Below are positions 4,635-48,479 of a DNA stretch of 48,479 nucleotides, piece after piece (the stretch's first letter is position 1; each line of letters opens with the position of its first letter). A model generated the notes under the pieces. It was not told the origin of the DNA. It did no database searches and saw only the letters and a list, made by a program, of their open reading frames with translations. The position numbers were made by a program, and so were the translations under genes. Source of the stretch: Gammaproteobacteria bacterium (lineage in GTDB: Bacteria > Pseudomonadota > Gammaproteobacteria > Xanthomonadales > Wenzhouxiangellaceae); assembly GCA_003565625.1 (NCBI GenBank), contig PXBD01000066.1, positions 1 to 48,479 of the forward strand. The letters run 5' to 3'.

Positions 4635-5090
4635 GTGCTGTCCATCGACACCAACATCCTGCTGTATGCGCAAAACCGGGATTGCCCGGAACATGGGCGC
4701 GCCCGGGATTTCATCGAAGCTTGCACCGAGCGTGATGGCGTGGCCATCTGCGAACTGGTGCTGGTCGAGCTCTACCAGTTATTGCGAAACCCGGCGGTTC
4801 TCGCAAGACCATTCAGCGCGCCCGACGCAACAGCCGTGTGCATGAGTTGGCGCAGCAATCCGCGCTGGGCCTTGATTGAAAACGCACCGATCATGAACCC
4901 GCTATGGCGTATCGCCGAGCAGCCAGAACTCCCACGGCGCGCCGTGTTTGACGCACGAATTGCCCTGACCCTGATCCATCACGGCGTGACCCGCTGGGCC
5001 ACGCGCAACGTTGCTGATTTCCAGGCCTTCGGCTTCGCGCAACTGATCAACCCGATCGACGAGACTGACCCCATCGTCCACGATCACTGA
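4635..5090 (+). CDS. VapC-type PIN-domain toxin (TA-system VapC)
   Basis: 151 residues from GTG 4635. The N-terminus LSIDTNILLYA gives the first PIN Asp; VLVELYQLL holds the conserved Glu; FDARIALTL the third acidic residue; and WATRNVADFQAFGF the T-x-N-x-x-D-F motif. This is the PIN subfamily normally paired with small RHH antitoxins, which fits the gene just upstream. Start chosen because GTG follows the antitoxin stop by one base and lies just before the conserved N-terminal strand. It should be an RNase toxin, apparently intact. It converges on hypD with 61 bp between the stops. Confidence 0.88.
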   Translation: MLSIDTNILLYAQNRDCPEHGRARDFIEACTERDGVAICELVLVELYQLLRNPAVLARPFSAPDATAVCMSWRSNPRWALIENAPIMNPLWRIAEQPELPRRAVFDARIALTLIHHGVTRWATRNVADFQAFGFAQLINPIDETDPIVHDH

Positions 5091-5151
5091 ATGGAGCCCC
5101 GCTCCAGGGAAGCGGCAAGTCAACCCACTACCCTGGATTCTGCAGCCGGCC

Positions 5152-6279
5152 TCAGCCGGCCTCGGCATATCGCCGGTAGCGATAGTAGGCCGCGCAAGCG
5201 CCTTCGTCGGAGACCATGCACGAACCAATCGGGTTGCGCGGGGTGCACACCGTGCCGAAGATTTCGCAGTCGGTGGGTTTCTTGACCCCGCGGATCACGG
5301 CCGGGCACTGGCAGGCCTTGTTTTCGCGCACTTCCTTTTCGACCAGGTCGAAGCGCTTTTCGGCGTCGAACCTTGCGTACTTGTCCTTGATCCGCAGGCC
5401 GCTGTAGGGCACTGTCCCTAAGCCCCGCCAGACAAACTCGGGTCGCAGCTCCAGGGTCTCGGCGACCATGGCCTTGGCCTTGGCGTTGCCCTCGCGCTTG
5501 ACCCCGCGGGTGAACTGGTTCTCAACCTCGGCCCGGCCCTCGTTCAACTGACGGATCAGCATGACGATGGAGGCCATCACGTCCAGCGGCTCGAAACCGG
5601 CGATCACCACCGGGCGCTGGTATTCCTCGGCGAAGAACTCGTAGGGCTCGGAGCCGATGATGGTCGACACGTGCGACGGGCCCAGAAAGCCGTCGACCCG
5701 GACCTGGCCCATGTCGCGCACTTCGGGTGAATCCAGGATCGACTGGATCGCCGAGGGCGTAAGCACATGGTTGCAGAACACGCTGAAGTTCTCCAGGCTC
5801 ATTTTCTCGGCCTGCCGGATGGCCAGCGCGGTCTGCGGCGTGGTGGTCTCGAAGCCGATGGCAAACATCACCACCTGCTTGTCCGGGTTGTCGCGGGCCA
5901 GTTCGAGTGCCTCGACCGTCGACTGGACCACGCGCACATCCTTGCCCTGCCCGCGCGCCTTCAACAGGCTGTTGCGGCGCGAGGCCGGCACGCGCAGCAT
6001 GTCGCCGTAACTGGCCAGGATCACATCATCGCGCGAGGCCAGTTCGATGGCCAGGTCCAGGCGTGCCACCGGCAGCACGCACACCGGGCAGCCGGGGCCG
6101 TGAACCATCTCGACGTTGTCGGGCAAGAGATCCGGAATGCCGTAGCGGAACACCGCGTGGGTGTGCCCGCCGCAGAACTCCATCAGGTGATAGCGCCGGT
6201 CGGGTCGGGCCTCGCGGCGGATGACCTCGGCCAGGGCCGAAGCCGCTCTGCCCTCACGAAACCCGTGGATATAGCGCAT
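5152..6279 (-). CDS. hypD: HypD, Fe-S scaffold for the hydrogenase Fe(CN)2CO unit
   Basis: 375 residues, the normal HypD length. Visible motifs are CGGHTH (residues 36-41), GPGCPVCVLP (61-70), GFETTTP near 154, and the C-terminal cysteines CQC...C...C that bind a 4Fe-4S cluster. With HypC, HypD receives cyanide from HypE and CO, and assembles the iron fragment of the [NiFe] centre in the cytoplasm. ATG 6279 is preferred to an upstream in-frame start because it begins the conserved MRYIHGFREG. It overlaps the hypC 3' end by 26 bp. The family's usual neighbour hypE does not follow; two TA modules and a cyclase do. Confidence 0.96.
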   Translation of the reverse strand: MRYIHGFREGRAASALAEVIRREARPDRRYHLMEFCGGHTHAVFRYGIPDLLPDNVEMVHGPGCPVCVLPVARLDLAIELASRDDVILASYGDMLRVPASRRNSLLKARGQGKDVRVVQSTVEALELARDNPDKQVVMFAIGFETTTPQTALAIRQAEKMSLENFSVFCNHVLTPSAIQSILDSPEVRDMGQVRVDGFLGPSHVSTIIGSEPYEFFAEEYQRPVVIAGFEPLDVMASIVMLIRQLNEGRAEVENQFTRGVKREGNAKAKAMVAETLELRPEFVWRGLGTVPYSGLRIKDKYARFDAEKRFDLVEKEVRENKACQCPAVIRGVKKPTDCEIFGTVCTPRNPIGSCMVSDEGACAAYYRYRRYAEAG

Positions 6280-42489: not shown

Positions 42490-42753
42490 CTACTCGTAGT
42501 GCGTCCACAAACGCAGCACCTTGACGACCCGCTCTTCCTCCAGAATCTGGTACACAAGGCGGTGCTGAACGTTGATTCGCCTTGAGTACGCTCCAGCAAG
42601 ATCGCCCACCAGCTTCTCGAAAGGCGGCGGCCGTTGAAAAGGATCGGAAACCAGAAACTCAAGCAACTCCTGGGCCTTTGGCTTCAATCCGCCGCGAGCG
42701 AGCTTCCGTGCGTCTTTCTGGGCCTGCCTGGTGTAAACCAGGCGCCAGCTCAC
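42490..42753 (-). CDS. yoeB: YoeB/Txe-family mRNA interferase toxin
   Basis: 87 residues starting (GTG) SWRLVYTRQAQKDARKLA. The RelE fold contains PPPFEKLVGDLAGAYSRRINVQHRLVY, where FEKL, SRRI and HRLVY are typical of YoeB, and ends LRLWTHYE. The conserved Glu, Arg and terminal His/Tyr active-site residues are present. YoeB cuts mRNA at the ribosomal A site. GTG overlaps the antitoxin stop as GTGA, which identifies this start over one eight codons upstream. Confidence 0.9.
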   Translation of the reverse strand: MSWRLVYTRQAQKDARKLARGGLKPKAQELLEFLVSDPFQRPPPFEKLVGDLAGAYSRRINVQHRLVYQILEEERVVKVLRLWTHYE

Positions 42754-42992
42754 CAATCCAGTTCCCCGGCGCACTCTTCGACGGGCGTGGCCATGCCCTC
42801 GATAATGGATTCGCGCATTCCCGGGACTGTCAAAAGGAACAGGGTTTCCTGGATTGCTTGCCAGTCCTCTTCGGCGATCAATACCGCCTTGTTGCGCTTG
42901 CCCGTAATGAGCAAGGGCCGGTGGGACTCGGCAGCCTCGTCGATCAGGCGATAGAGTCGGGCGCGGGCTTCGCTGGCGGTGATGGCGGACAT
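42750..42992 (-). CDS. yefM: YefM/Phd-family antitoxin
   Basis: 80 residues beginning MSAITASEARARLYRLIDEA, then PLLITGKRNKAVLIAEEDWQAIQETL, the Phd/YefM N-terminal fold that binds DNA. The C-terminus (GMRESIIEGMATPVEECAG) is the toxin-neutralising helix, with the typical SIIEGM motif. ATG 42992 begins the conserved core. It is preceded by GGAG eight bases upstream and an operator-like promoter. Coupled to yoeB by 4 bp. Confidence 0.92.
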   Translation of the reverse strand: MSAITASEARARLYRLIDEAAESHRPLLITGKRNKAVLIAEEDWQAIQETLFLLTVPGMRESIIEGMATPVEECAGELDW

Positions 42993-43020
42993 GTCAGGTC
43001 TCCGGAACGTAACCATTGAG

Positions 43021-43060
43021 ATGGTACGCGATTTCGAACGTACGTTAAGCAGTACGTTAC
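43021..43060 (-). promoter_or_regulatory. yefM-yoeB promoter with GTAC-core operator repeats
   Basis: On the minus strand, TTAACG (43048-43043), 16 bp, TACCAT (43026-43021) form a weak promoter. A perfect 10-bp palindrome AACGTACGTT (43037-43046) and a second GTAC core at 43052-43055 are 12 bp apart centre to centre, with a third GTAC at 43024-43027. Two palindromes spaced 12 bp are the known geometry of YefM-YoeB operators, whose core is TGTACA. Confidence 0.55.
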
Positions 43061-43080
43061 CGCTGTCGTGTGTTCCGGCT

Positions 43081-43170
43081 ATGGGCATCGGATGCTCAAT
43101 GAACTGGCGGCAACTTTCCAGCGGCGTGGTCGAGGGTTTCAACGCCAAAGCAAACAAGGAATACCCCCCG
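43081..43170 (+). mobile_element. Remnant of an ISL3-family transposase
   Basis: The frame beginning at 43081 reads GCSMNWRQLSSGVVEGFNAK, then a few more residues and loses similarity. LSSGVVEGFN.KAK is the C-terminal catalytic-Glu region of ISL3 transposases. Only about 25 residues remain, with no terminal inverted repeats visible. It shows past IS activity between yefM and the ADP-ribosylglycohydrolase gene. Confidence 0.5.
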
Positions 43171-43223
43171 GAGTGCCGAATGCACAGCACATGTATAGCT
43201 GAAGATTCGGTTATCCTCAAAAC

Positions 43224-44015
43224 ATGGTTGGTGCAATCATTGGCGACACCGCGGGCTCGGTTTACGAGTGGCAGAACGTCCGCAGGAAGGACTTCGGGCC
43301 GCTGTTTGATTCCAAGGCCTTCTATACCGACGACACCGTCTGCACCGTGGCCGTGGCCGACGCGCTCGTCAACGACCGTCACCCTGGCGAGGCACTGAAG
43401 GACTGGGGGCGACGCCACTGGGAGAACGGCGGCTGGGGCGGGATGTTTGCCCGCTGGCTGATGTCGGACTCGCTTGAGCCCTATGACAGCTTCGGCAATG
43501 GCGCAGCAATGCGGGTGTCACCCGCCGGATTGCTGGCGCAGTCGGAAGAACAGGCGATCGAGTTGGCCCATCGCGTCACCGAAGTCACCCACAATCATCC
43601 TGAAGGGATGAAAGGTGCAGCGGCCACGGCGCTTGCTATCTATCTGGCCCGCATCGGACAGCCCGCTGCGTTCATTCGCCTGGCCGTGACCGAGCGCTTT
43701 GGCTACGACCTCGACCGCACGCCGGACGATATCCGCCCTACCTATCGCTTCAACGAAACCTGCCAGGAAACCGTGCCCCAGGCCCTGGTCTGTGCACTGG
43801 TCGCCAGCGACTTCGAAGACGCCATCCGCAACGCGATCTCCATCGGCGGCGACAGCGACACCGTGGCCGCCATTGCCGGCGGAGTCGCGGAGGCCCTGTT
43901 CGGCGTCCCGGAACAGATCGCGCGCAAGGGCTGGGACTATCTGCCCGACGATATGCGCGAAGTACTGCAAGCCCTCTACAAAAAAGGCGGAATCGACATT
44001 CATGGCCACCAATAA
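43224..44015 (+). CDS. ADP-ribosylglycohydrolase (DraG/ARH family)
   Basis: 263 residues. The two metal-binding segments are present: TDDT at residues 35-38 and GGDSDTVAAIAGG at 208-220. HNHPEGMKGA lies in between. The enzyme removes ADP-ribose from proteins or from ADP-ribosylated nucleic acids. The start ATG has no visible ribosome site and may be read from a short leader. Its end overlaps the next gene by 14 bp. No ADP-ribosyltransferase is nearby to explain its substrate. Confidence 0.9.
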   Translation: MVGAIIGDTAGSVYEWQNVRRKDFGPLFDSKAFYTDDTVCTVAVADALVNDRHPGEALKDWGRRHWENGGWGGMFARWLMSDSLEPYDSFGNGAAMRVSPAGLLAQSEEQAIELAHRVTEVTHNHPEGMKGAAATALAIYLARIGQPAAFIRLAVTERFGYDLDRTPDDIRPTYRFNETCQETVPQALVCALVASDFEDAIRNAISIGGDSDTVAAIAGGVAEALFGVPEQIARKGWDYLPDDMREVLQALYKKGGIDIHGHQ

Positions 44016-45394: not shown

Positions 45395-46432
45395 TTCGCA
45401 TTTAATAAACAACGACCTACAGCCATCGCCCAAGGCGGGAAACGCGCGTGCCAGGTCTACCTCGACGTGTCCGGCTCCATGAACGCCGAGATGGGCCTGC
45501 TGATCGCCTTGCTGGCGAAACTCTCGCGCTGGATCCGCCGGCCCTTCTGGGCCTTCAGCGACGAGGTCGCCCCGGCCATGATCGAAAACGGCCAGGTCGA
45601 AGTCGCCTGCTGGTCTGACCAGGTGTGGCTGTCCGGCGGATTGTGCACCCGCACCCCCATCGGCCTGGACTGGCGCGACGTGGTGGTGCAAACCGGGCTG
45701 GATATCGGCTACGTGCCCGGCAATGCCATCGACGCCAACCGCTACCAGCTCATCAACACGATCTGCGAACAGGTCGGCGACCCGACCCGCTGGAGTCATC
45801 ATGTCAACGACCAGGCCATCGTCATCGGCTGGGCCGGCTCCGACCAAAAGACCCGCTGGCTGCCGCCCGAACACCACCTGGCCCACGCCTTCCGCGAGGC
45901 ACTGACCGAGTCCTGCCGCAGCGGAATCCTTGCCGGCGAGGGCCCGGACGGTAAGCTCTTGGTGCGCCTGCGCGAAAACCCAAACGACTGGTCCGTCGAA
46001 CACATCCTGGTCACCCTGCAGCAGCGCGAACAGACCCGCCTGATGGACCTGTGCGAGCGCATCCTTGCCACCCTCGAGCGCGCCTACAAAAACCTGCAAC
46101 AGCAAGACCCGCGCTGGACCAGCCCGTGGCCGCAGATCCAGTGCCCGATCAACCCCAACGGCCCGCTGCTGAACGGCGGCAGCGACGGCGACAACGGCCA
46201 GACCGGCCGCAAGCTGGTGATGGACTACTACGGCCCGCGCGTGCCCTTAGGCGGCGGCGCCCTTTGCGGCAAACACCCCACCCACATCGACCGAATCGGC
46301 GCCCATGCGGCCCGGGATGCCGCCCTGCACGCCGTGCAAACCGGCGCGGAGGAATGCCTGGTGCAGGTGACCTATGCGCCGAATTGTGACCAGCCGCTGG
46401 ATGTGGCGCTGACGCGTGGGTCCCTGCGGTAG
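45395..46432 (+). pseudogene. Chimeric fragment: von Willebrand A domain fused to a SAM-synthetase (MetK)-like protein
   Basis: An open frame runs from just after TGA 45392-45394 with no start codon ahead of its conserved part; the first possible one, GTG 45467, lies inside the vWA motif. The first ~55 residues are a vWA half-domain with MIDAS YLDVSGSM and FWAFSDEVAPAMIENGQ. From about VACWSDQV on, it becomes MetK-like: GYVPGNAIDANRYQLIN, AIVIGWAGSD, LAHAFREALTESCRSG, then INPNGPLLNGGSDGDNGQTG with the phosphate and K-binding region, and GGGALCGKHPTHIDR. The GHPDK motif is absent. After QVTYAPNCDQPLDV the end is replaced by ALTRGSLR, lacking ~70 residues. Fused at one side and truncated at both ends. 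Confidence 0.75.
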
Positions 46433-47085
46433 CGCGACAGCGGCACCAGTGCGCCGGCAAAAGGGCGGTCCGTGGCGATCTGTAAGCCCTCCGCCCTGAA
46501 CGCCTTGAGGGCTGCGTGCAGCAGATCAGCCGGGGTGTGATAGTCGTCGGTTCCGAGACAGATCTCGGGTCGGACGGGGTTCTGATCGGGTTCGTAAGGC
46601 AGCGGCCTGGACGGAAAGCTGTGGCAGTCGATCAGCAGGCAGCGGCCGTGCCGGCCGATGGCTCTGTCGACTGCCGCTTCCAGTCTTCGGTGGTGCGGCC
46701 AGTACCAATCGTTCAGAAGAGTCTGGCGTTCCTGAGCGGAGATCGGCCGCCGCAGCGGGCGACCATTTGAAGTGAGCTGGTAAATCACCCCCATGCCACG
46801 CCCAGCCATCGGCTCGTCGACATCGTCCGGGAAACGCTCCACATCCACCACCAAGCGGCTGACCGGAGCCCACACCACGGTCGGGTTCTGGACATCCAGA
46901 CCAAAAAGCCGGGCCGTGGCATGGTCAGTCATGCGCAGAAGTTCCTTGGCCAGTTCCGAGTCGCTCAGGACAAACTGCTCTCGCACTTCGGCAGGGATGT
47001 CCATGGCATCGTGCGGCAGGTGCCACACGATGCTGGAGCGATCCACGACAACTGGCTCGACGCCGGAATCGATCTTAAGGGTCAT
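46372..47085 (-). CDS. N-formylglutamate amidohydrolase-like protein, C-terminally truncated
   Basis: 237 residues. Zinc-binding family landmarks are WHLPHDAMDIPAEVREQ, a region VSRLVVDVERFPDD, DWYWPHHRRLEAAVD and LLIDCHSFPSRPLP. The family hydrolyses N-formyl or related acyl amino acids; the true substrate here is not known. After YRRDPRVSA the usual C-terminal SIMIEVNR.LYM strand is absent and the frame ends TSSGWSQFGA inside the antisense of the MetK-like fragment, so ~30 residues were lost at a rearrangement joint. GGGGA lies seven bases before ATG 47085, overlapping the preceding small gene by 11 bp. Whether it is active is doubtful. Confidence 0.8.
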   Translation of the reverse strand: MTLKIDSGVEPVVVDRSSIVWHLPHDAMDIPAEVREQFVLSDSELAKELLRMTDHATARLFGLDVQNPTVVWAPVSRLVVDVERFPDDVDEPMAGRGMGVIYQLTSNGRPLRRPISAQERQTLLNDWYWPHHRRLEAAVDRAIGRHGRCLLIDCHSFPSRPLPYEPDQNPVRPEICLGTDDYHTPADLLHAALKAFRAEGLQIATDRPFAGALVPLSRYRRDPRVSATSSGWSQFGA

Positions 47086-47272
47086 GCGGTGTCCCCGGCG
47101 CCGGCTGATCCTCGTTGTCGGTTACAACATCCGTATCTGCCGGCGCCGAGCTCGCCTGTGCCTTGAGCTTCGCAAATTGCTCAGGCGTTGGTCGCTTCGT
47201 CCAGAAAATGATGCGGGTGCCGTATAGCGGATGGTCGGGCGGCAATGGGCCATTTCGTTTCCTGACGACCAT
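47075..47272 (-). CDS. Small hypothetical protein, 65 aa, in the uncharacterised cluster
   Basis: MVVRKRNGPLPPDHPLYGTR, then IIFWTKRPTPEQFAKLKAQ and an acidic, Pro-rich tail. No family recognised. The ATG is one base after the stop of the 172-aa gene (TGAcATG) and its own stop overlaps the formylglutamate amidohydrolase-like start by 11 bp. Such dense packing supports a real gene in an operon of three. Confidence 0.6.
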   Translation of the reverse strand: MVVRKRNGPLPPDHPLYGTRIIFWTKRPTPEQFAKLKAQASSAPADTDVVTDNEDQPAPGTPHDP

Positions 47273-47273
47273 G

Positions 47274-47792
47274 TCAGCTCTTCTCCCCGTCCAGGCTTTT
47301 GGGCTTCTCGGGCCAGACATGCCTGGAAATCGCACGCATCTCGGCCGGGCCCAGAAGCCCGCTATCGGCAATCCAGTGGAAGTGATCCAGGTCCTGGACC
47401 TCGATTTCTTCCTTCAGTGAGGCGATGACCAGGTGGATCGCTGCAGTCCGTTCATCGAGATCGCTGCGGGGGCAGACGGCGCTGACCACCCATGGATCGT
47501 CGCCGTTTTCTTCCAGATCGACGAAGTAACTCCACAGCACCCAGTCGCGGTTTTCGTAGCGCTCCAGGCTGAACCCCTGCAGCCGGCTGTGCATGGGACT
47601 CCAGGCCCACTCCAGCGCGACCAGAAAGGTGTCTTTCTTTGGACCGGCGCGCTGGGCCTGCTTCTTCGGGATCTTGAGCGCATCGGTGATGATGCGGGTG
47701 CCCGGTGGCAGTGGCGGCAGCCCGACAACCTCTACCAGCCGCTGCTGCGGCAGTTGCTCGGGTGACATCGGAACATCAAATGGTCTGCTCAT
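47274..47792 (-). CDS. Uncharacterised protein, 172 aa, behind a 56-bp repeated leader
   Basis: Starts MSRPFDVPMSPEQLPQQRLV. A hydrophobic core includes FLVALEWAWSPMHSRLQGFSL and WVLWSYFVDLEENGDDPWVV, and the C-terminus contains DLDHFHWIADSGLLGP and AISRHVW. Aromatic-rich, no membrane helix, no known motif. AGAGG precedes ATG 47792 by eight bases; the same distance is found in the next gene upstream. It heads the operon 47792-46372. I do not assign a function. Confidence 0.7.
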   Translation of the reverse strand: MSRPFDVPMSPEQLPQQRLVEVVGLPPLPPGTRIITDALKIPKKQAQRAGPKKDTFLVALEWAWSPMHSRLQGFSLERYENRDWVLWSYFVDLEENGDDPWVVSAVCPRSDLDERTAAIHLVIASLKEEIEVQDLDHFHWIADSGLLGPAEMRAISRHVWPEKPKSLDGEKS

Positions 47793-47813
47793 GCGGTTTT
47801 CCTCTTTGCAAAG

Positions 47814-47869
47814 GCCCTGTTTAGCGGTATGCATTTAACGTCCCCCGCAAGTCGGGCTAAATCGGGACG
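47814..47869 (-). repeat. 56-bp structured leader repeat, copy 1
   Basis: Identical at 54 of 56 positions to 48270-48325. It contains an outer inverted repeat TTTAGC (47820-47825) / GCTAAA (47856-47861), extended by CCC/GGG after a 2-by-2 mismatch, and an inner hairpin CCCG-CAAGT-CGGG (47844-47856). It lies 21 bases before the start of the 172-aa gene and 22 bases after the previous stop. It has no T-run, so it is not a plain terminator. Confidence 0.85.
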
Positions 47870-47891
47870 GTGGTGCTGTCGGTGCTTGTGC

Positions 47892-48245
47892 TCAGGCGCG
47901 GGCGAGGATGTCCGGCGAAGACGGCTCAGCCTCGGCCCGGGCGACCCAGCCGCCGATCAGGGCGTCCGGCGCGAACTGGTTGAAGACGATGCCGGGCGTG
48001 TGCTGGGTGGGGCCGTGCATGGCTTCGGCCATGGCCAGATCCTGGTCCGGATCCAGCCCGCCCGAGGACAGCTTGTGCAGTATTTCCTGGAAATCCTGAC
48101 CGCTCATCGCGCCCATGCGGAACAGGAAGTCGTCTTCGGCGTAATGCTGGAGCTGCTCGCGGAAACCCTCGAGACCGCCGACGAAGCGGGCTTCGACCCG
48201 GGACTTCAGGACGAAGATATTCATCAAACCAACGGGGAGTGACAT
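47892..48245 (-). CDS. Uncharacterised protein, 117 aa, behind the second copy of the leader repeat
   Basis: Starts MSLPVGLMNIFVLKSRVEAR, then FVGGLEGFREQLQHYAEDDF and MGAMSGQDFQEILHKLSSGG. The C-terminal half (GIVFNQFAPDALIGGWVARAEAE) is hydrophobic-acidic. Not recognised. ATG 48245 is chosen over 48251 because AGAGG is then eight bases upstream, exactly as in the 172-aa gene. The stop is 22 bp before repeat copy 1. Confidence 0.65.
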   Translation of the reverse strand: MSLPVGLMNIFVLKSRVEARFVGGLEGFREQLQHYAEDDFLFRMGAMSGQDFQEILHKLSSGGLDPDQDLAMAEAMHGPTQHTPGIVFNQFAPDALIGGWVARAEAEPSSPDILARA

Positions 48246-48269
48246 GATCATTTCCTCTTGATCGGAAAC

Positions 48270-48325
48270 GCCCTGTTTAGCGGTATTCGTTTAACGTCCC
48301 CCGCAAGTCGGGCTAAATCGGGACG
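48270..48325 (-). repeat. 56-bp structured leader repeat, copy 2
   Basis: Second copy, differing from 47814-47869 at two adjacent-region bases (TATTCGTTT against TATGCATTT on the plus strand) and ending 24 bases before the 117-aa start. Both copies have the same orientation relative to their gene. The remaining 154 bp to the window end hold a further inverted repeat (CTCAGGTTT 48431-48439 / AAACCTGAG 48464-48472) and no recognised gene. Confidence 0.85.
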
Positions 48326-48479
48326 TGTAGCGCAGGCTCGTTTCCGAACACTGCAGGGCAAGCTTAACCCGGATTTGCCCCTGCCGAAAAAATTCCCCTC
48401 CTTTTTTCTCAGCAGCCAATCCGGACCCTTCTCAGGTTTTGAGAATACGGGGGGCCAGACTGTAAACCTGAGGGGAAAA

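Follow-up and report, generated by a model that had tools for sequence, protein, structure and literature searches.

A fused vWA/SAM synthetase-like reading frame as a probable remnant of a SAM-riboswitch operon encoding a MoxR/vWA pair

Work on the rubisco activase CbbQO supports a MoxR hexamer joined by a vWA subunit, which binds the client via its MIDAS and remodels it, and the authors predict the same mechanism for other MoxR/vWA pairs, in a family termed poorly studied (PMC4660213). The operon described in this work resembles CbbQ/CbbO in joining a MoxR gene to a MIDAS-bearing vWA gene that would putatively serve a metabolic enzyme. However, the neighbouring enzyme is here a homologue of SAM synthetase, the vWA protein has an HExxH domain, and the operon includes an extra gene, X, and SAM riboswitches in its leader. 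A MoxR and vWA core is also present in the vWA-MoxR ternary conflict systems (eLife 2020, PMC7159879), but neither MetK nor a synthetase appears in the main text of that article. The SAM synthetase homologue, here called MetKL, belongs to the same domain family as MetK (methionine adenosyltransferase, TIGR01034) and has its catalytic motifs, although it lies far below the equivalog cut-off and forms a separate, long-branched group.

A review of tandem SAM riboswitches lists 44 doublets of SAM-II and, in two cases, a SAM-II element behind SAM-I/IV; the main text of this review does not mention MoxR, and our operon loci may be among its examples (PMC9481103, RNA Biol 2022). In Escherichia coli, metK is one of only seven genes whose expression changed in each of the two ravA-viaA data sets, which is a hint at most (PMC3893208). 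The preliminary description of this DNA knew of no system with such a combination of families, and our literature searches for MoxR and vWA with SAM synthetase (also as S-adenosylmethionine synthase or methionine adenosyltransferase) likewise did not find the combination described. By title, a search on MoxR and riboswitches gave nothing on such an operon.

An operon of MoxR, vWA and MetKL genes

The gene order MoxR AAA+, small gene, HExxH/vWA gene and MetKL was found in seven relatives: L033 (a Caulobacteraceae MAG), L034 (genome G022), L036 (G006), L037 (G048), L038 (G100), L089 (G928) and L090 (G1086), with contig ends cutting MetKL in L036 and MoxR in L090. The vWA and MetKL genes adjoin and are separate in all seven operons, overlapping by 4 nt in L033 and L089, and the vWA frame of L089 (6266-7651) is intact. 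The separate vWA and SAM synthetase-like genes proposed in the preliminary description for an ancestor are therefore seen side by side in every relative found. The operon is rare and patchily spread among bacteria: the vWA profile A2 matched five of 398 genomes of the order, including that of the window (the whole stretch of 48,479 nucleotides analysed here), one of 398 genomes of the phylum, which is the window's own, and two of 337 genomes of the class around G401, these counts being lower bounds since at most four candidates were scored per genome.

The ATPases of L033 and L034 matched AAA_5 (37.5 and 39.6 bits, cut-off 22), and DVSGS and TDG are invariant in the five aligned operon vWA proteins, so that an AAA_5-type ATPase stands beside a MIDAS-motif vWA protein as in a MoxR AAA+/vWA pair. 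The vWA proteins of L033 and L034 score below the Pfam vWA cut-offs (DUF2201, 17.3 and 24.1 versus 26.4 bits), and the bpMoxR domain of the vWA-MoxR-beta-propeller ternary system reached 15.2 and 20.6 bits in the same two loci, versus a cut-off of 27. The small gene X constitutes one family in L033, L034, L036 and L089 (38-58% identity). Its place in L037, L038 and L090 is taken by an ORF of similar size with no recognisable likeness to it; the ORFs of L038 and L090 have a 13-residue match in common. A structure of X predicted from the single sequence had a mean pLDDT of 37.2 and was set aside. Another HExxH/vWA gene overlapping a gene for a MoxR-type ATPase was observed in a 177-kb viral contig (L044:7356-10456), with no MetK seen by eye in the stretch examined.

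The six full MetKLs all retain GHPDK, DQ, PDxK, GDNGxxG[RK]K and GGGAxxGK..DR; the lysine ahead of the last DR is replaced by H in L033, L034 and L089, and the partial MetKL of L036 has GHPDR. We take GHPDK, DQ, PDxK, [TS]G[RK]K and GGGAxxGK..DR to be the catalytic motifs of MetK. MetKLs deviate from ordinary MetK in the SEG to LPG, GAGDQG and PDAKS stretches, with FPG instead of LPG in the MetKL of L090 only, and of the 198 alignment columns that do not vary among 26 ordinary MetKs, 43 are also kept in all six. Their relatives in the PDB are SAM synthetases (best E 1.2e-29). In the scan against the metK equivalog TIGR01034, which covered the MetKLs of L033, L089 and L037, the scores were 133.2, 143.0 and 151.7 bits, versus a cut-off of 309.4. 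In the tree, a branch with 100/100 support separates MetKL from the 26 ordinary MetKs and MetKL falls into two sub-groups, whose depth and placing are unsure because of their long branches. X tracks these sub-groups, being found in that of L033, L034, L036, L089 and the window fragment.

A second, partial MetKL lies at a contig start in G022 (L035), overlapping by 8 bp a canonical-type MetK (L035:382-1572) that scores 519.7 bits, above the TIGR01034 cut-off; a tandem MetKL/MetK pair therefore exists in this genome. No second MetK was seen by eye in the other operon loci. The contig does not extend upstream of this copy. Together with the operons described above, it accounts for all MetKL-grade matches in 101 relatives.

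It is conceivable, though rather unlikely, that MetKL is a stand-alone emergency or substrate-shifted enzyme making SAM or an analogue, and that MoxR and vWA serve some other target, such as a protein modified with its product. The retention of catalytic motifs in proteins below the equivalog cut-off in all three cases tested would fit such an enzyme, as would the deviating GAGDQG stretch. Nevertheless, vWA adjoins MetKL in all seven operons found and, in the 101 relatives searched, MetKL is restricted to such loci and the second G022 copy, which favours a physical partnership between them.

Deletion joints in the window

The window contains an open frame of 345 codons at 45395..46432 on the plus strand, in which parts of these two genes are fused. 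The SAM synthetase M domain (PF02772) covers residues 137-256 of this frame (31.4 bits, Pfam cut-off 29) and the C domain (PF02773) residues 261-339 (68.6 bits, cut-off 25). The vWA part, 45451..45594 (plus strand), has 83.3% DNA identity to L034 and includes the start of the DxSxS MIDAS motif, lacking the N-terminal HExxH part and the later MIDAS residues; Pfam vWA models gave no match on this short fragment. The MetKL part, 45590..46405 (plus strand), contains PF02772 and PF02773, has 82.8% DNA identity to L034, and lacks the GHPDK N-terminus and the C-terminal end. By DNA homology to L033, L034 and L089 the left vWA edge lies at 45451-45452; the protein alignment to L033 continues weakly to 45416, an extension that is absent from those to L034 and L089.

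The two homologies overlap by 5 nt at the joint (45590..45594, plus strand). In the DNA alignment 347 bp are missing relative to L034, leaving the fusion in frame, and by subtraction of alignment coordinates 347 bp are also missing relative to the distant L089, from another class of the phylum. G022, which belongs to the same genus and is the best relative of the fused frame among 101 genomes, has vWA and MetKL as separate adjoining genes. The in-frame joint near 45590 that the preliminary description had pointed out is thus real, and its suggestion of a collapse by deletion agrees with the missing 347 bp. The loss of the MetK-like end and of the C-terminus of the opposing amidohydrolase-family gene (FGase), both placed by it near 46405, were borne out as well: the match of MetKL to L034 and that of FGase to its counterpart in genome G017 (locus L065) both end at the joint 46405..46405.

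That the frame encodes a functional fusion with some novel role seems highly improbable. The frame is long and open across an in-frame joint, and its dN/dS versus L034 is 0.18 over 272 codons, but such a low value can stem from selection that predates the deletion. Its earliest in-frame start codon, GTG at 45467, lies inside the MIDAS motif, past the first Asp, and the product would be devoid of HExxH, the later MIDAS residues and GHPDK. Moreover, a search for relatives with the same fusion found no other match running from the MIDAS part into MetK in the 101 genomes.

An assembly chimera at one or more of the joints must also be considered, since the window's assembly comprises 95 contigs (89.5% complete, 2.35% contamination) and several joints fall within 1 kb. 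Against this stand the short common sequence at the joint and the same identity to one relative on either side of 45590, which argues against mis-assembly at this position. In the window's own assembly, which is incomplete, no other vWA or MoxR match was found, one of the searches lacking a positive control, and we hold a chimera to be improbable. The fused frame is almost certainly a remnant of the operon. Amino-acid changes, when polarised, fall 12 on the window branch and 11 on the G022 branch, with 18 not assignable; there is no sign of long decay, and the damage by deletion looks recent.

Among plasmid records, 161 matched the fused frame, all below 60% identity and at most 31.2% among the 25 matches listed, which is the level of ordinary MetK, and the vWA gene had no match among plasmids. 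In viral contigs, 43 stretches fit MetKL patterns, none of them a relative.

SAM riboswitches in the leaders

The preliminary description had missed MoxR, its small neighbouring gene and the main point, the SAM riboswitches. A 60-nt repeat is found twice in the window, at 47810-47869 and 48266-48325. In the 30 genomes of the genus there are six copies in four genomes: the two in the window, two at the FGase cluster of G017 and one each before MoxR in G022 and G006, and this subtype is confined there to FGase-cluster and MoxR-operon loci. The repeat was considered as an integron attC and rejected, as it lacks attC spacing and cmscan recognised it as SAM-II. Nothing in the window reached the Rfam gathering threshold; a permissive cmscan of 700 bases found SAM-II (RF00521, gathering score 36) at 47800..47878 on the minus strand, within the leader of FGase-cluster gene B (34.9 bits, E 4e-6), and at 48256..48334 on the minus strand, within that of gene A (35.5 bits, E 2.8e-6). 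Elsewhere the scores were 36.2 and 34.0 in G017, 34.2 twice in L034, 34.5 in L036 and 32.2 in L037, so that one of eight elements, in G017, is at or above the gathering score, with E values from 2.8e-6 to 1.8e-3. The P1 helix CGTCCC/GGGACG is present in all six short-type elements and a putative pseudoknot pairs the loop GCCC with a 3' GGGC by eye. A start codon comes right after each 60-nt copy, and most copies are separated from it by a purine-rich site, also by eye.

SAM riboswitches precede MoxR in five of the six visible leaders (that of L090 is off the contig), in all five as tandem doublets. In L034 both elements (4822-4901 and 4705-4783) were found by Rfam. In L036 (4267-4346 and 4139-4217) the first was found by Rfam and the second rests on our model R1 and 88% identity to a window copy, and in L037 (15034-15111 and 14925-15001) the first is by Rfam and the second by R1 only, with 57.3 bits. 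L038 has a SAM-I/IV element at 1413-1537 (Rfam, 46.2 bits) followed by SAM-II at 1561-1638 (R1 only, 38.7 bits), and L033 has two SAM-I/IV elements, 4858-4956 and 5080-5188, with 61.4 and 58.3 bits. The three SAM-I/IV matches exceed the gathering score of RF01725 (41.1), and SAM-II and SAM-I/IV have no common clan in Rfam. In the leader of L089, no SAM riboswitch was detected.

R1 is a model of our own whose building set, A5, includes the upstream elements of L034, L036 and L037, so that these three match it by construction. The second L037 element, that of L038 and one at L065 9849-9929 (69.0 bits) are independent of the building set. R1 scores low on the 60-nt type (11.9 to 28.4 bits) because it was built without it. 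As a control, RF00521 matched 16 of the 30 genus genomes (nine above cut-off) and none of 14 named controls. Away from the loci discussed here (L066-L073, L076, L078-L081) the next gene is by eye of LysR type in 12 of the 13 cases examined (in L067 the automated choice of ORF fell on a different frame), and one such gene had CysB as its best NCBIfam model (392 bits, below the cut-off of 436). A weak SAM-II match in G017 (contig C21, 26.5 bits) is followed only by a 73-aa ORF. Terminator-like hairpins follow the first element in L037 and L038, and shuffled sequences equal them by chance (mean 0.7 and 1.0).

Riboswitches of the SAM-II and SAM-I/IV families generally act as OFF switches. It is very likely that SAM controls the intact operon, and the riboswitch pairs ahead of most intact copies suggest a machine that services SAM production. 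A drop in SAM would then allow the tandem riboswitches to permit expression of the operon, MoxR would form rings that act with the vWA protein, and the latter would bind its client through the MIDAS site. ATP-driven remodelling might then free or mature a SAM synthetase, as CbbQO does for inhibited rubisco; this could be MetKL alone or a pair of MetKL and an ordinary MetK. Remodelling of SAM synthetase by the intact operon, proposed by analogy with that activase, is a tentative idea that we would not put at even chances. As a whole, we think it probable that the fused frame is a recent remnant of a SAM-riboswitch operon, MoxR-X-HExxH/vWA-MetKL, whose intact machine remodels SAM synthetase. In the window this machine would have been destroyed, next to a second module under SAM-II control (A, B, C and FGase). 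The operon suggests what the target might be, a SAM synthetase, and the leader what the trigger might be, SAM, which makes both directly testable. If the proposal holds, SAM synthetase would resemble rubisco in having an AAA+ caretaker of its own, and riboswitches from two different families would have been recruited for its control.

The amidohydrolase cluster

The N-formylglutamate amidohydrolase-family gene of the window (46372..47085, minus strand; PF05013, 158.9 bits) is convergent to the fused frame. It lacks the last 39 residues, its tail consisting of about 10 residues of antisense MetKL. In G017 (L065) the homologue is intact, with 267 aa and 72% identity to the window copy over residues 18-228. 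FGase has the PF05013 domain like HutG/N-formylglutamate deformylase, but the intact G017 protein scores 62.4 bits against the HutG equivalog TIGR02017, versus a cut-off of 278.75. Three further genes of the cluster lie on the minus strand of the window: the small gene C (47075..47272; 59% identity over 27 aa to L065, no Pfam family), and genes B (47274..47792, 62% identity to G017) and A (47892..48251, 35% identity to G017), both of no known family. A structure of protein B predicted from the single sequence had a mean pLDDT of 43.5 and was set aside.

The G017 cluster reads SAM-II doublet, A, SAM-II, B, C, D, FGase and ART-PolyVal. The window retains A, B, C and the truncated FGase, and D and ART were not found in it; what is left of the module may still be expressed. 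Directly after FGase in G017, the ADP-ribosyltransferase-family gene of ART-PolyVal type occupies L065:6908-7306, and a Cas3-like gene (L065:12055) starts about 2 kb past the leader of the cluster.

The preliminary description placed vWA, MetK-like and amidohydrolase-like genes in one ancestral cluster. This stands for vWA with MetKL but gained no such support for FGase, which was not found together with them outside the window when co-occurrence was checked as it had proposed. Protein B was detected in the window's own genome (G000) and in G017, two of the 398 searched in the order; G017 has no vWA match, and the operon carriers G022 and G006 have no match to FGase or protein B. Among the genomes found, the window is the only one with both the FGase cluster and the operon, and the cluster thus looks like a module separate from MoxR/vWA/MetKL. 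Its link to the operon rests on adjacency in the window and on the common SAM-II subtype, which supports a shared regulon or a recombinational exchange at the leaders and is no proof of one system.

The same elements could belong to a defence system in which loss of SAM, through phage SAM-degrading enzymes or methylation demand, triggers MoxR/vWA/MetKL, with FGase and ART as effectors. The distribution is sporadic; an integrase-like ORF near L089 and ORFs of transposase type in L035 and L038 were seen by eye; next to L033, a WYL regulator matches PADLOC WYL models of CRISPR loci (106.8 bits); and ART-PolyVal and Cas3-like genes are near the G017 FGase cluster. However, PADLOC, in a scan of nine proteins, gave for the four L034 operon proteins a single weak mad8 match, to MoxR (25.5 bits), and none for FGase, and we find a defence system unlikely. 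A related and similarly doubtful proposal is a SAM-gated mobile stress or defence machine, in which the MoxR/vWA motor would re-arm or replace SAM synthetase upon SAM collapse, with FGase, ART and A/B as satellites of a dispersed SAM-starvation regulon.

Other genes were observed in the window to the left of the remnant. At 43224-44012 an ADP-ribosylglycohydrolase-family gene precedes one resembling pRiA4 ORF3, and a Phd/YefM-type antitoxin domain is found at the end of an over-long ORF at 42750-43418. A small ORF (42490-42774) comes next on the same strand, overlaps the latter and may be its partner.
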